The notes beneath the pieces were generated by a model that saw only the letters and a list, made by a program, of their open reading frames with translations, did not search any database and was not told the origin of the DNA. Both the position numbers and the translations under genes were made by a program. Below, piece by piece: positions 20,474 through 39,818 of a DNA stretch of 53,306 nt (its first letter is position 1; each line of letters begins with the position of its first letter). The stretch is from Prochlorococcus sp. AG-363-M21 (lineage in GTDB: Bacteria; Cyanobacteriota; Cyanobacteriia; PCC-6307; Cyanobiaceae), in NCBI GenBank assembly GCA_003278305.1, contig QCFU01000010.1:1-53306 (forward strand), given 5' to 3'.

Positions 20474-21715
20474 TTAGTCATCTTGCGTGAGCTTATGTTT
20501 TACCCATGATTCCCATTTGGCTAATTCCCATTTGCCTACATCATTCCTTGTAAGTTGAGGGCAATTCAGCCATCTAATTGGCTGTTCATGAGATGGCCAA
20601 CTTTTAACAAAGTCTTTTAGGTTATCTAATAATTCAGATACATTGATTGTTTCAGTATTGCACAATTGAATTAAAGCAACCATCCTTTGACCCCATTCAG
20701 AATCATCGACTTTAATTAACAAGAGTTCTTTAACAGGGAATTTAGCTTTTTGAATAGCATTCAATAAGTTCACTTGAATTAATTCTGGATATACTATTTC
20801 TCCTCCAGAATTAATAGCAGTATCTACTCTCCCAATAATTGTTAACTCTTTATTGCCTTTAACGTCAACTAACTCTGCGATATCTGCAGATGCCCACCAC
20901 CCATCTACTTTAATAATTGATTGTACTTTTTCATTGATTACATTACCTATAGCTAATCTGGGAGTTTTGATTTCTAATCTTTGATTTTTCCCTAGACGTA
21001 ATTGGACATCTTTTAAACAGCTTCCATGGCTGTTAATTCCAGACAAAAATTTTTCTGGACTAAGTGCAGTCACCATTGCTGTGGTCTCAGTTGTGCCATA
21101 ACAAGGCGCTAATCGGATCTCTGATTTTCGTGCAAGTGAGGCAAGCGTTATCGGTAATAATGCTCCTCCTACCCAAACAACAGAGAATGATTGTAGCCAT
21201 CTTATCCCTGCTGGATCTTTTAATAACCGACTGAGTTGAGTAGGGACTAATGATGTGATTTTAGGAGTATTTGTTCCATATGTTGAGTTGATAGATATTC
21301 TTTCGAGTTCCTCAGGATGCCTCATTACTTTAGGTGATATAGATATATATTGAGCATTCCAACAGTGACTTCGCCACCATGGCATAAGTCCACTGATGTG
21401 ATTGAGTGGCAAACAATTATAGATTTGACATTGTTGACTGTCTAAACCTAGCGAGTTGAGCCATTCCTTTGAAGCTAATGCTGATTTATTTAAATGACTA
21501 CATGGGATTAGACATTTATGTGCTCTTCCTGTACTACCGCCACTATTAATGATAAAACCCGGTCCTTGAGGCAATTGCTTGTAAGAAGGGAATACCTCTT
21601 TGTTGTTTTTGGAGAGTAAATGGATCCAAGTTTTGTTAGTTAATTCAAATTCTATTTGTTGAAGGATTTCTTCTGTTTTTTCAGGGTCACAAATGATTGA
21701 ACAAATTTTTTTCAT
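20474..21715 (-). CDS. menE: o-Succinylbenzoate-CoA ligase
   Basis: AMP-forming ligase activating o-succinylbenzoate in phylloquinone synthesis. The adenylation core 'GFIINSGGSTGRAHKCLIP' (P-loop), 'LAPCYGTTETTAMV' and 'GWWASADIAELVD' can be followed, then a C-terminal lid with the 'LTRNDVGKWE' Lys region. Start set at ATG 21715 since it forms an ATGA overlap with the menC stop; an ATG at 21727 is also possible. About 413 residues. Third gene in the menA-menC-menE run. Confidence 0.9.
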   Translation of the reverse strand: MKKICSIICDPEKTEEILQQIEFELTNKTWIHLLSKNNKEVFPSYKQLPQGPGFIINSGGSTGRAHKCLIPCSHLNKSALASKEWLNSLGLDSQQCQIYNCLPLNHISGLMPWWRSHCWNAQYISISPKVMRHPEELERISINSTYGTNTPKITSLVPTQLSRLLKDPAGIRWLQSFSVVWVGGALLPITLASLARKSEIRLAPCYGTTETTAMVTALSPEKFLSGINSHGSCLKDVQLRLGKNQRLEIKTPRLAIGNVINEKVQSIIKVDGWWASADIAELVDVKGNKELTIIGRVDTAINSGGEIVYPELIQVNLLNAIQKAKFPVKELLLIKVDDSEWGQRMVALIQLCNTETINVSELLDNLKDFVKSWPSHEQPIRWLNCPQLTRNDVGKWELAKWESWVKHKLTQDD

Positions 21716-22680
21716 GCTGCATTCCATACAGATATTGGATGATCACTAAAAAGAGGAGTATTTGGACACCAACCAGGGCCAAGGCCAGGGGCAGTAGGCG
21801 TTGGCCCTTGCTGTTGCAAAGTCGCTAAATATTGCGTCCACCGCCTGCCTATTCCTGTTTCAAAGGATGAGCTGATCACTCGATAGCCCACTTTGTCATT
21901 TAATTCTTTTAAAAGTTGTCTGGGGTCTCCTTCTAGCAAAGGTTTGCGTATTTGCCAGCTTTTCCATGTTTGTCTTAATACTGGATAGTCAATAAGTGAT
22001 TCATCTAAAGCGATTGGTATTTGTTTAGATAACATGGTCATTCCCTCAAGATCACTTGAAGAAAGTGGCTGTTCAATCCATTCCAATTTTGATTCATTAA
22101 CTAAATAATCAACCCAATCTTTTGCAGTTTTGCGATCCCATCCGGCATTAGGGTCGATTCTTAACCGAGCTTTGCTGGGTAAACGATTTAGTATTTTATC
22201 GAGAAGCTTTTTTTCTATTTCATTAGGAAGACAAGCTACTTTCCACTTAAAAGTTATATTTTCATCTTTAGCACTTTGTTCATTAAGTTTAGATTCTAGA
22301 ACTGAGATTAGAGAATCATCAGTTGGAAGAAGGAATGCTGATTCAAGCCAAGTCGATGAGTTATTATTTATATCGAGATCAATTAATGACTCAATTTCGG
22401 CTAGTGCAGCACCAATGCCAAAGGCAAATGCACCCGATGATTTTAATAGCTTTACTTCTAATTGTCTTTTAGAAAGTTTTTTCTCTAAATTATTTAGTAA
22501 GTTTTCACATTCACTCATTTCATGCTGATTAAGTGGAGCTATTTCCCCCCAGCCATTTTTGCCAGTCTCATCTTGAACATTTAATAGCCAACCTTCTTTT
22601 TTATTTATGATCCCTTTGGATGTATTTAAAGGCTTTACAAGCTCAAAAGAAAATGGCTTTATTTCAAGAGATAGTTCCAT
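21712..22680 (-). CDS. menC: o-Succinylbenzoate synthase
   Basis: Enolase-superfamily enzyme dehydrating SHCHC to o-succinylbenzoate. The base pair K-x-K is in 'FKWKVAC' near residue 145; the metal ligands follow as Asp in 'RIDPNAGW', Glu in 'LEWIEQPL' and Asp in 'IALDESL'. Its C-terminus keeps 'SSSFETGIGRRW'. 322 residues. It lies 13 bases after menA and overlaps menE by four bases, so the three are one transcription unit. Confidence 0.9.
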   Translation of the reverse strand: MELSLEIKPFSFELVKPLNTSKGIINKKEGWLLNVQDETGKNGWGEIAPLNQHEMSECENLLNNLEKKLSKRQLEVKLLKSSGAFAFGIGAALAEIESLIDLDINNNSSTWLESAFLLPTDDSLISVLESKLNEQSAKDENITFKWKVACLPNEIEKKLLDKILNRLPSKARLRIDPNAGWDRKTAKDWVDYLVNESKLEWIEQPLSSSDLEGMTMLSKQIPIALDESLIDYPVLRQTWKSWQIRKPLLEGDPRQLLKELNDKVGYRVISSSFETGIGRRWTQYLATLQQQGPTPTAPGLGPGWCPNTPLFSDHPISVWNAA

Positions 22681-35829: not shown

Positions 35830-38097
35830 TCATGTTAGCTCAGTTCTTGCAATATCAATAACGTCTGCCATAGAACGAATTTGTTGCATTGTTGATTTTA
35901 ATTGGTTTGAATCTTTTAGCTCAATCCGTAAATCAATACAAGCTGGCTTGCTATAAGCTGTTTTTACACGAGCATCGCTAACATTAATTCCACTATCTGA
36001 AAGCCTCATTAAGATATCTTTCAGAATCCCAACTCTATCAATTACTTCGATTCTTAATTGAGAAGAAAATCTTTGATCTCCCATTAACTCGCTTTCACTC
36101 CACCTTACAGGTAATCTTCTTTCTGTTGGTATATTGGCTAAATTAACGCAATCTTGTCGATGAATTGTAATCCCATGGTTGCCAAGTGCTACTGTTCCTA
36201 TAATTGTTTCTCCAGGAAGAGGGCTGCAACATCCCCCTAATCTATAGTCAAGACCCTCGACGCCATAAATGGGAGTAGTGGTTGAACGTCTATTAGAAGT
36301 TCTTCTCTCAGACTGAGTAGGAAGCTTTTGAGGCTCATATGCATTTTCTGATAAGACTTCTGATTCCATATTTTGTAGACGTATCTCTTCTCTTAAACGG
36401 TTGAGGGCTTGATGTAATGTTATCGCTCCAAAGCCAAGGGCGGCCAGAAGATCATCCTTGCTCTTGAGATTGCATCTTTCTGCAACCTTTTTCATTGCTG
36501 TGCTATTTAATAGCGTATCAAATCCATCTCGACCCAGTTCTCGTTCAAGAAGATCTTTTCCACGTTGAATTGTTTCATCTCTATGACTTTTCTTATACCA
36601 TTGCCTTATCCTATTCCTAGCTGTAGGTGTGGCAACAAAGTTTAGCCAGTCGAGACTTGGATGAGAAGTTTTATTTGTAAGAATTTCAATGAAATCACCA
36701 TTGTTCAGTGGTGTAGATAATGGACATAATTTGTCGTTTATGCGACTACCATGGCAGTGGTTTCCAACTTCGGAATGAATGCGATAAGCAAAATCTATCG
36801 CAGTAGATCCTTTTTTTAGTCCGAGAACATCTCCTTTAGGAGTAAAAACAAAAACTTCTTCATCAAATAAATCCTCTTTTATAGACGATAGATAGTCATT
36901 ATGGTCATCTTTGCCTCCTTCTTGTTGCCATTCTAAAAGTTGACGAAGCCAATTAAATTTTTCTGCATTTCCTGTAGCAGGTGACCCTCCTTCTTTATAT
37001 TTCCAATGTGCAGCTATACCAAATTCTGCAACTTGATGCATTTCAGGAGTTCTTATTTGTACCTCGATAGGTCTATGCCTTCCAATGACAGCAGTATGAA
37101 GTGATTGATATCCATTAGGCTTGGGAAGACCAATATAGTCCTTAAATCGACCAGGAATAGGCCGAAATGTATCATGTACCACTGCAAGAGCTCGATAACA
37201 TGTTTCTAGATCAGGAACTATTATTCGCAATGCGGCGACGTCGTATATTTCATGGAATTCTTTTTGTTGACGCTGCATCTTGCTCCATATGCCAAATAGG
37301 TGTTTTGGCCTGCCACTGATTTCGCAATTAATTAGTCCTGCCTTTGATAATTTTTCTTTAAGTAATTGAATTGTTACTTCAAGGCGTTTTTCTCTCTCGC
37401 TTCTTTTGGTCATTAATTCTTCTTGAACTTGCCTATAAGCTTCAGGTTCTAGAAGCTTAAATGCTAGATCTTCAAGCTCCCATTTGAAACGACCTATCCC
37501 TAATCGATTCGCCAATGGTGCATATATTTCTTTTGTTTCTAAGGCTATGCGTTGTTGTTTATCAGATTGAAGAGAATCTAAGGTGCGCATGTTATGCACT
37601 CTGTCAGCTAGTTTTACGAGAACAACTCGAATATCACAAGCCATTGCAAGAAACATTTTTCTTAAGTTTTCTGCTTGAGCTTCAGTTCTATTTGTAAAGT
37701 GAATACCGCCTAATTTAGTTACCCCTTCAACTAATCCACTAACTTCACTGCCAAAAAAATCCTCTAATTGTTGTGGGCTGAGGTCTGTATCTTCGATTGC
37801 ATCATGAAGGAAACCGGCTGCTATTACGGTTGGACTTGCCCCTATTTCGCGCAATAAGTCTGCAACGGCCACAGGATGAACAATGTATGGATCACCACTT
37901 GCTCTAAATTGACCAGTATGAAGTCGAAAAGCTAAGTCAAAAGCATTGACAAGTAAAGACTCTGGATCAGTAGGACATGCTTCTCCTCTGCCAAGAGGAA
38001 TCTTTTCAAGGCAGTCTTTTAGCCAATTAGGCAATACAATGCCATAATCCTCAGCTTTAGCAATTGTTTTAGTTTTCAGTTGAGGTTCTTCAGGCAT
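35830..38097 (-). CDS. rel: Bifunctional (p)ppGpp synthetase/hydrolase
   Basis: 755-residue RelA/SpoT homolog. Hydrolase HD site: 'YIVHPVAVADLL', 'AAGFLHDAIEDT', 'KLADRVHNMRT'. Synthetase: 'GRPKHLFGIWSKM', 'IYDVAALRIIV', 'GRFKDYIGLPKPNGYQSLHT', 'VEVQIRT'-type strand and 'EFGIAAHWKYKEGG'. A TGS domain ('VFVFTPKGDVLGLKKGSTAIDFAY') and a C-terminal ACT domain ('VIDRVGILKDILMRLSDSGINV') follow. Both catalytic centres look intact, so it should make and degrade the stringent alarmone. Its 5' region contains a perfect 12-bp dyad (38126-38162). Confidence 0.96.
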   Translation of the reverse strand: MPEEPQLKTKTIAKAEDYGIVLPNWLKDCLEKIPLGRGEACPTDPESLLVNAFDLAFRLHTGQFRASGDPYIVHPVAVADLLREIGASPTVIAAGFLHDAIEDTDLSPQQLEDFFGSEVSGLVEGVTKLGGIHFTNRTEAQAENLRKMFLAMACDIRVVLVKLADRVHNMRTLDSLQSDKQQRIALETKEIYAPLANRLGIGRFKWELEDLAFKLLEPEAYRQVQEELMTKRSEREKRLEVTIQLLKEKLSKAGLINCEISGRPKHLFGIWSKMQRQQKEFHEIYDVAALRIIVPDLETCYRALAVVHDTFRPIPGRFKDYIGLPKPNGYQSLHTAVIGRHRPIEVQIRTPEMHQVAEFGIAAHWKYKEGGSPATGNAEKFNWLRQLLEWQQEGGKDDHNDYLSSIKEDLFDEEVFVFTPKGDVLGLKKGSTAIDFAYRIHSEVGNHCHGSRINDKLCPLSTPLNNGDFIEILTNKTSHPSLDWLNFVATPTARNRIRQWYKKSHRDETIQRGKDLLERELGRDGFDTLLNSTAMKKVAERCNLKSKDDLLAALGFGAITLHQALNRLREEIRLQNMESEVLSENAYEPQKLPTQSERRTSNRRSTTTPIYGVEGLDYRLGGCCSPLPGETIIGTVALGNHGITIHRQDCVNLANIPTERRLPVRWSESELMGDQRFSSQLRIEVIDRVGILKDILMRLSDSGINVSDARVKTAYSKPACIDLRIELKDSNQLKSTMQQIRSMADVIDIARTELT

Positions 38098-38125
38098 TAC
38101 TCACTGAAAGCTCAGATTGATTAGT

Positions 38126-38162
38126 GTTGAATTTGACCTATAGCTAGTATGTCAAATTCAAC
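38126..38162. repeat. Perfect 12-bp inverted repeat between rel and the ABC gene
   Basis: GTTGAATTTGAC at 38126-38137 has its exact reverse complement GTCAAATTCAAC at 38151-38162, with a 13-base spacer that contains TAGCTA. It lies 29 bases upstream of rel and 51 bases upstream of the ABC gene, in the middle of a divergent promoter region. It could be an operator or an RNA hairpin in either leader. Symmetry seen directly; role inferred. Confidence 0.6.
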
Positions 38163-38213
38163 TTGGCAGATAACATATATTTTATTCAGGCTTAACATCC
38201 ATTGCTACATCCT

Positions 38214-39818
38214 ATGTCGAGTTCTTTAGGGGATGTTTTAAATATTCAAGACTTAAAGGTGCGCTATCCAAATAGTAGAAAATGGGTTCTGAATGGGTTC
38301 AATTTGAATATCTCAGCTGGTGAAAGACTAGCTTTGATTGGAAGCTCAGGGTCTGGCAAAAGTACTGTTGCAAAGGCTTTGATGCAGATTTTGCCTTCTG
38401 GGAGTCGATGTGAGGGCCAATTACTTTTAATTGGCAAAGAACTTTTGAATTTGAATGATCTTGAATTAGAAAAAGCTAGAGGGGAATTGCTTGGATTGGT
38501 TTTTCAAGACCCTATGACAAGGCTCAACCCATTGATGACCATTGGAGATCATTTGCTTGACACACTAAAAGCGCATAACAGCAGGCAAACTTCTTTAAGC
38601 CTGAGAGCTCGTGCAGAAGAATTATTGGAAAAAGTGGGATTAAACCCAGCACGTTTTGATGCGTATCCCCATGAATTTAGTGGTGGAATGCGTCAACGCG
38701 TTGCTATTGCTTTAGCTATTGCCTTAAACCCACCATTAATAATTGCTGATGAACCTACTTCGAGTCTTGATGTTGCAGTTGCTAATCAAGTAATGAGTGA
38801 ATTAAGTCGCCTTTGTGATGAATTAGGGAGCTCACTCTTGTTAATTAGTCATGATCTTGCCCTTGCGTCTAGATGGTGTCAACGCATGGCAATAATACAA
38901 GAAGGGGCTGTTATTGAGGAAGGCTATACGAATGATGTCCTTGGCAGTCCTAAATCATTTCTTGGTAAAAGATTGGTAGCTGCTGCTAAAGCAATAGAAG
39001 CAAAAGCAGAGAACGAAACGTCAAATTCAGAAGTTATTTTAGAAGTTGATAGATTGCGTTGCTGGTATTCTGTTGGCAATATGCCTTGGGAAATTAATTG
39101 GATTAAAGCGATTAATGAAGTAAGCTTTTCTCTTCGTTTTGGTGAAACGCTAGGTTTAGTAGGTGTTTCTGGGTGTGGAAAAAGTACTTTAAGCAGAGCA
39201 CTTTTAGGGTTATTACCCATTAGAGGAGGGGAGGTTAAACTTCTTGGTAAAACTTTGATTAATTCAACTAAAAAATTTAATCAAAAATCTAAGCAATTGA
39301 TGCAAATGGTTTTCCAAGATCCCTTTGCATCTTTAAATCCCAAGATGACTGTTTTAGAGATTGTTTCTGATCCAATTTTGATTCATCAACTATCTACTTA
39401 TGCCAAAGCCAAAGAAAAAACAAGGCGATTAATTGAACAAGTTGGATTAATGCCTCCTGAAGACTTTCTTAATCGTATGCCTAATCAACTTTCAGGAGGG
39501 CAACAGCAAAGGGTCGCAATTGCTCGAGCACTAGCATTAAACCCTAAAGTTCTAATTTGTGATGAAAGCGTAAGTATGTTAGATGCTGAAGTTCAAGGAG
39601 AGATTTTGACATTGTTACGCTCCTTGCAAAGAAAACTTGGTTTGGCGATACTATTTATTACGCATGATTTATCTGTAGCTCATAGCTTTTGTGAGAGAAT
39701 TATTGTTTTAGATCAAGGTAAGATTATTGAAGAAGGTTTGGCAAATCAAGTTTTCACTAAACCCGCTTCACCAGTATCTAGAAAGTTGGTAAGAGCTTGT
39801 CCAAGGATAACAACCTAG
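38214..39818 (+). CDS. Fused double-ATPase ABC transporter protein (Dpp/Opp/Yej type)
   Basis: Two complete ABC domains in one 534-residue chain. Domain 1: Walker A 'GSSGSGKST' (43-51), signature 'FSGGMRQRVAIA', Walker B 'LIIADEPTSSLDVA'. Domain 2: Walker A 'GVSGCGKST', signature 'LSGGQQQRVAIA', Walker B 'VLICDESVSMLDAE'. This resembles YejF/DppDF ATPases for peptide or nickel uptake. No permease or binding protein is next to it, so its partners are elsewhere. ATG at 38214 preferred to TTG at 38202. Confidence 0.9.
   Translation: MSSSLGDVLNIQDLKVRYPNSRKWVLNGFNLNISAGERLALIGSSGSGKSTVAKALMQILPSGSRCEGQLLLIGKELLNLNDLELEKARGELLGLVFQDPMTRLNPLMTIGDHLLDTLKAHNSRQTSLSLRARAEELLEKVGLNPARFDAYPHEFSGGMRQRVAIALAIALNPPLIIADEPTSSLDVAVANQVMSELSRLCDELGSSLLLISHDLALASRWCQRMAIIQEGAVIEEGYTNDVLGSPKSFLGKRLVAAAKAIEAKAENETSNSEVILEVDRLRCWYSVGNMPWEINWIKAINEVSFSLRFGETLGLVGVSGCGKSTLSRALLGLLPIRGGEVKLLGKTLINSTKKFNQKSKQLMQMVFQDPFASLNPKMTVLEIVSDPILIHQLSTYAKAKEKTRRLIEQVGLMPPEDFLNRMPNQLSGGQQQRVAIARALALNPKVLICDESVSMLDAEVQGEILTLLRSLQRKLGLAILFITHDLSVAHSFCERIIVLDQGKIIEEGLANQVFTKPASPVSRKLVRACPRITT

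Follow-up and report, generated by a model that had tools for sequence, protein, structure and literature searches.

A lineage-specific palindrome over a lost rel start codon in a Prochlorococcus-type cyanobacterium, probably made by template switching

A perfect inverted repeat, GTTGAATTTGAC-N13-GTCAAATTCAAC, lies exactly at positions 38126 to 38162 of the window (the whole stretch of 53,306 nucleotides that was analysed), between the divergent genes rel and a fused double ABC ATPase. This dyad is probably a young, lineage-specific palindrome, formed most likely by template switching over a dead rel start codon and carrying little or no selected function. An earlier note on this DNA had described a perfect 12+12 repeat with a 13-base spacer between the divergent starts of these two genes. 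The repeat was found again at the same bases, and the gene positions agree, with rel starting on the minus strand at ATG 38097 and the ABC gene on the plus strand at ATG 38214 or TTG 38202 (Table 1). If one mismatch is allowed, the arms grow to 15 bases (38126-38140 and 38148-38162) and the loop shrinks to 7. As read here, the dyad would be a clear case in nature of a perfect hairpin that came into being in a single bacterial lineage, on top of a start codon no longer in use.

Table 1. Features of the rel-ABC region in the window
Feature	Position	Strand	Remarks
rel	35830..38097	-	RelA/SpoT family, bifunctional type; HD, synthetase, TGS and ACT domains
Fossil of Rel N-terminal extension	38098..38157	-	No longer in the rel frame; the relatives' version has about 23 codons
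Decayed place of the relatives' small stem	38108..38124	-	CTAATC AATCT GAGCTT; 2 of 6 pairs left
Left arm of dyad	38126..38137		Rel-strand sequence GTCAAATTCAAC; matches codons of the relatives' Rel N-terminal extension
Spacer of dyad	38138..38150		13 bases
Right arm of dyad	38151..38162		Rel-strand sequence GTTGAATTTGAC; lineage-specific, over the relatives' extension start codon
Predicted rel -10 element, TAAAAT	38179..38184	-	Conservation-based prediction
Fused double ABC ATPase gene	38214..39818	+	Oligopeptide/nickel kind (Opp/Dpp/Nik/YejF-like)

The source organism is a Prochlorococcus-type cyanobacterium whose closest named relatives by Rel identity are AG-439-G12 (85%) and AG-402-G22 and AG-363-N16 (82%). 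We examined 84 rel loci, 79 of them non-redundant, with the window included. Gene order at this site is stable: the divergent rel/ABC arrangement was kept in all 30 loci tested, and 114 to 123 bases separate the rel reference codon from the ABC start in 23 of them. Despite this conserved synteny, the dyad is absent from all 78 other non-redundant loci. It is present in one of the three genomes of the genus, both other members being without it, and when any spacer of 3 to 30 bases was allowed, it occurred in one of 400 family genomes, namely the window's own. The exact dyad with its spacer of 13 had no match in a collection of named genomes from which near-identical genomes, including the window's own, may be left out. 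Drift in the arms is likewise accompanied by no excess of compensating changes in an alignment of seven rows (53.7% of cells paired; covariation matched by 59 of 500 shuffles). Nucleotide identity of rel to the relatives is only 75 to 79% (nearest, 77.8%), so a functional site that evolved recently could not appear conserved in this comparison. In the rel tree, the window branches outside the pair formed by loci L002 and L003.

These comparisons bear directly on the suggestion of the earlier note that the dyad is an operator linking (p)ppGpp control to nutrient uptake. Palindromic operators of dimeric repressors do occur between divergent genes, and the dyad shares with them its perfect symmetry and its position between divergent starts. 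It differs from them in being unconserved, in having no regulator gene next to it among the adjacent genes read, and in the spacing of its half-sites, whose centres are 25 bases apart, which would not correspond to a whole number of helical turns. The dyad also stands alone in its genome, where the exact arm occurs twice, both times within the dyad, although an operator with a single target would look the same. Given the lack of conservation and of further copies, this reading was dropped; we regard a protein-binding operator that ties (p)ppGpp metabolism to uptake as very improbable, and there is no support for an operator that would also serve the ABC gene. The case is a caution that dyads seen in a single genome should not be read as operators. 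As for the ABC protein itself, the top-scoring models were Opp, YejF, Dpp and Nik ATPases. The adjacent genes read include no transport partner, a PF00496-type binding protein is encoded elsewhere in the same genome, and a search of the assembly, which is only 70% complete, with OppC_N gave no match.

The stretch beneath the dyad corresponds to coding sequence in the relatives. In nearly all Prochlorococcus- and Synechococcus-type loci, the rel frame is open for about 23 codons upstream of the window ATG. This Rel extension begins M-(L)-N-A-T-S or similar and later reads N-S-T-Q, and Rel open frames are about 776 to 791 aa long in most Prochlorococcus loci, compared with 756 in the window. In the window, a TGA stop stands two codons before ATG 38097 and makes the extension untranslatable as part of Rel. 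Translation of its rel can therefore begin no earlier than ATG 38097, about 23 codons further into the gene than in most relatives. On the rel strand, the left arm matches the extension codons around N-S-T (AAT TCA AC). The right arm covers the column of the old ATG (about 38155-38157), where L002 reads GTCGGATGCTAA, and is without counterpart in the relatives.

The extension has decayed in the two sister genomes, too. L003 has ATA where the relatives' extension has ATG, and L063, a further locus, is likewise without the extension ATG. L002 (G001, AG-439-G12) has kept the ATG and lost one base, and its frame ends with TAATG at the downstream rel start; this shifted extension may act as a small upstream reading frame with translational coupling to rel. 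The lineages of the group thus do not all start Rel at the same site, and homology-driven automatic annotation could misplace the rel start in the window lineage.

The distribution of changes between the arms suggests how the palindrome arose. Compared with L002, which stands in for an unreconstructed ancestor, 1 of the 12 left-arm bases and 6 of the 12 right-arm bases are different, and each of the six right-arm changes brings that arm closer to complementing the left one. L002 is itself already quasi-palindromic at this site, with 6 of 12 positions in Watson-Crick pairs plus one G-U. Changes clustered in one arm, six of six of which are explained by copying the other arm, are the pattern expected of a template switch. 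We propose that the extension decayed in the window's genus and that, in the window lineage, the stretch holding the old start codon was turned into a reverse-complement copy of the fossil codons next to it (AAT TCA AC). The simplest route would be a single brief template switch of the quasi-palindrome kind during replication, which would leave the arms perfect. L003 and the window have ten bases, GACATACTAG, in common next to the arm, so an inverted insertion of about 9 bases together with a 7-base deletion explains the data no worse than a 12-base replacement does, and the ancestral sequence is uncertain. An alignment to L003 would imply the same kind of event.

Template switching is known to create perfect RNA stems (PMC8794818). 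The dyad resembles the hairpins described there in that one arm appears rewritten as a nearby reverse complement, giving a perfect stem in one lineage, and in that a relative is already partly paired. Here, however, the setting is no RNA gene but the leader of a bacterial mRNA, at the site where a start codon has been lost, and the event is deduced from two to three diverged relatives rather than from a reconstructed ancestor.

A palindrome of this length could also have come about by pure chance, through point mutations in a dead stretch. To judge this, we counted perfect dyads of at least 12 bp. The window has two (spacer 3 to 30), whereas 20 windows simulated under a first-order Markov model averaged 0.2. 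In a genome sample consisting of the window and 20 stretches of 20 kb, taken from 1,161,170 bases, there are 19 in 453,306 bases, against 1, 4 and 1 in three Markov simulations. Thirteen of the 19 lie outside ORFs of at least 80 aa, and 10 exceed the rel-ABC dyad in length. The dyad is above a simple null, yet ordinary for its genome, and the description of it in the earlier note as much longer than other repeats does not hold. The second dyad of the window, also a perfect 12 bp, lies at 20778-20815 with a spacer of 14, inside a 417-aa minus-strand ORF (20474-21727).

Within the rel loci, perfect dyads of at least 8 bp are as frequent in the relatives' rel-ABC gaps (0.603/kb) as in the remainder of these loci (0.599/kb). 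Those of at least 12 bp number 2 in 8,298 bases of gap, a count that includes the window's own starting dyad, versus 7 in 425,913 bases of remaining locus sequence, which is mostly coding. For these two reasons, and because the 8-bp rates are equal, we do not claim the gap as a palindrome hot spot. Chance formation gains from these equal rates and from the fact that such dyads are not rare in the genome; it is opposed by their excess over the Markov expectation and by the uniform direction of the six right-arm changes, and we consider it improbable.

An artefact of single-cell amplification or assembly appears very improbable. Whole-genome amplification is known to make inverted chimaeras, and the relatives that carry names come from single-cell or metagenome assemblies. 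However, both flanks of the dyad are collinear with the relatives, from the -10 element upstream to the rel codons downstream, so an artefact would need two exact switches. A perfect dyad of 13 bp in the same gap is moreover found in another genus, on one contig of G082 (locus L052). Among the 84 rel loci, only this one and the window have a perfect dyad of at least 12 bp in the gap.

Upstream of rel, a -10-like pattern, GAATANN[A/C]T, occurs in 65 of 72 loci, and the remaining seven carry near variants. In 59 of the 65 carrying loci, it lies 79 to 80 bases from the rel reference codon. The predicted element of the window stands beside the dyad, which should consequently be transcribed in the rel leader. 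From its position we infer a rel transcription start near 38172, which would make the dyad leader bases about +10 to +46. The earlier note had described the repeat as centred where promoters should be; for rel, the conserved -10-like element is adjacent to the dyad, not in it. A sigma-70 scan of about 500 bases gave one site, equal to shuffles and away from the dyad.

The rel mRNA would, on this prediction, carry a leader hairpin of 12 to 15 bp. The 41-base dyad segment folds at -15.4 kcal/mol on the rel strand (z -6.4) and at -15.6 on the other strand, and the fold of the 79-base leader has a z of only -2.2. We dropped a terminator reading for lack of a T run: each arm has 4 of 12 G/C, and neither strand shows such a run. 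A search of Rfam at the gathering score found no RNA family in the window or in 11 loci. No rel leader hairpin is mentioned in the portions of PMC5607370, PMC2518516 and PMC7406221 consulted, and its absence in print is unproven.

The main rival to a lineage-specific palindrome of little or no function is a functional leader hairpin, in which the dyad replaced a small stem of the relatives and tunes the stability or translation of rel mRNA. Leader hairpins of the ompA type stabilise bacterial mRNAs from their 5' end. The dyad is like them in that it would form a stem near the predicted mRNA 5' end with the start codon outside it, and unlike them in being unconserved. The leader hairpin offered as an alternative by the earlier note is still in keeping with the data: the dyad lies just downstream of the predicted -10 element and folds strongly for its length. 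Pairing of the dyad has not been preserved in evolution.

The small stem itself sits at a fixed place in the first rel codons of many relatives, 27 to 11 bases ahead of the reference codon, which corresponds to ATG 38097 of the window, as CAGACC-N5-GGTCTG or as the variants CAGGCC-N5-GGCCTG, CAGGCT-N5-AGCCTG and CAAGCC-N5-GGCTTG. Carriers include L004, L005, L006, L009, L040, L042, L043 and L046. The changes are paired on both sides and alter T..V to A..A in the protein. Across 71 loci, 81.6% of cells are paired (75.7 in shuffled alignments) and covariation is 0.260 (0.163 shuffled), with none of 500 shuffles reaching either value. Versions slid along the alignment reach at most 46.1% paired, and the true register tops all of them in both pairing and covariation. 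These scores are inflated by protein constraint, since the stem codes for Q-T-x-x-V-C, and by the counting of related rows.

The stem is far from universal. Of 72 loci, 25 have standard pairs at all six positions and 45 at positions 1 to 5, and full pairing occurs in only 8 of 20 added loci. The stem is missing in marine Synechococcus-type loci and in several Prochlorococcus loci, including L044 and L045. G-U pairs number 22 and A-C pairs 11 (37 and 25 when shuffled), so the RNA strand is not singled out. Stems can also stay paired through template switching itself. We treat the small stem of the relatives as a selected element only as a lead; if selected, this covarying stem would add a so far unlisted candidate to the controls of (p)ppGpp synthesis in the streamlined cyanobacteria of the ocean.

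For a functional leader hairpin in the window speak the scores of the small stem, its loss there, the folding of the dyad just upstream on the mRNA and the strength of that fold. The many lineages without the small stem, the inflated scores and the strand-neutral pair counts speak against it. With 12 to 15 bp and a place elsewhere, the dyad is also no direct replacement. On balance, we find this reading unlikely. The same low standing applies to the broader scenario in which the small hairpin of Prochlorococcus rel is selected and sets how much (p)ppGpp enzyme is made, the window lineage having lost hairpin and extension and a template switch having supplied a longer hairpin beside the old place. 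If true, a cis-regulatory RNA element of the stringent response would have undergone structural turnover. Under the preferred reading of a young palindrome, the effect of the leader hairpin would probably be mild at most, on mRNA 5'-end stability or spacing, and would not amount to a regulatory link to the ABC gene.

A second perfected palindrome of the rel-ABC gap is the 13-bp dyad of L052, which is unrelated to that of the window and lies at a different place. In that locus, the small stem has grown into a perfect one of at least 13 bp inside the coding rel extension.
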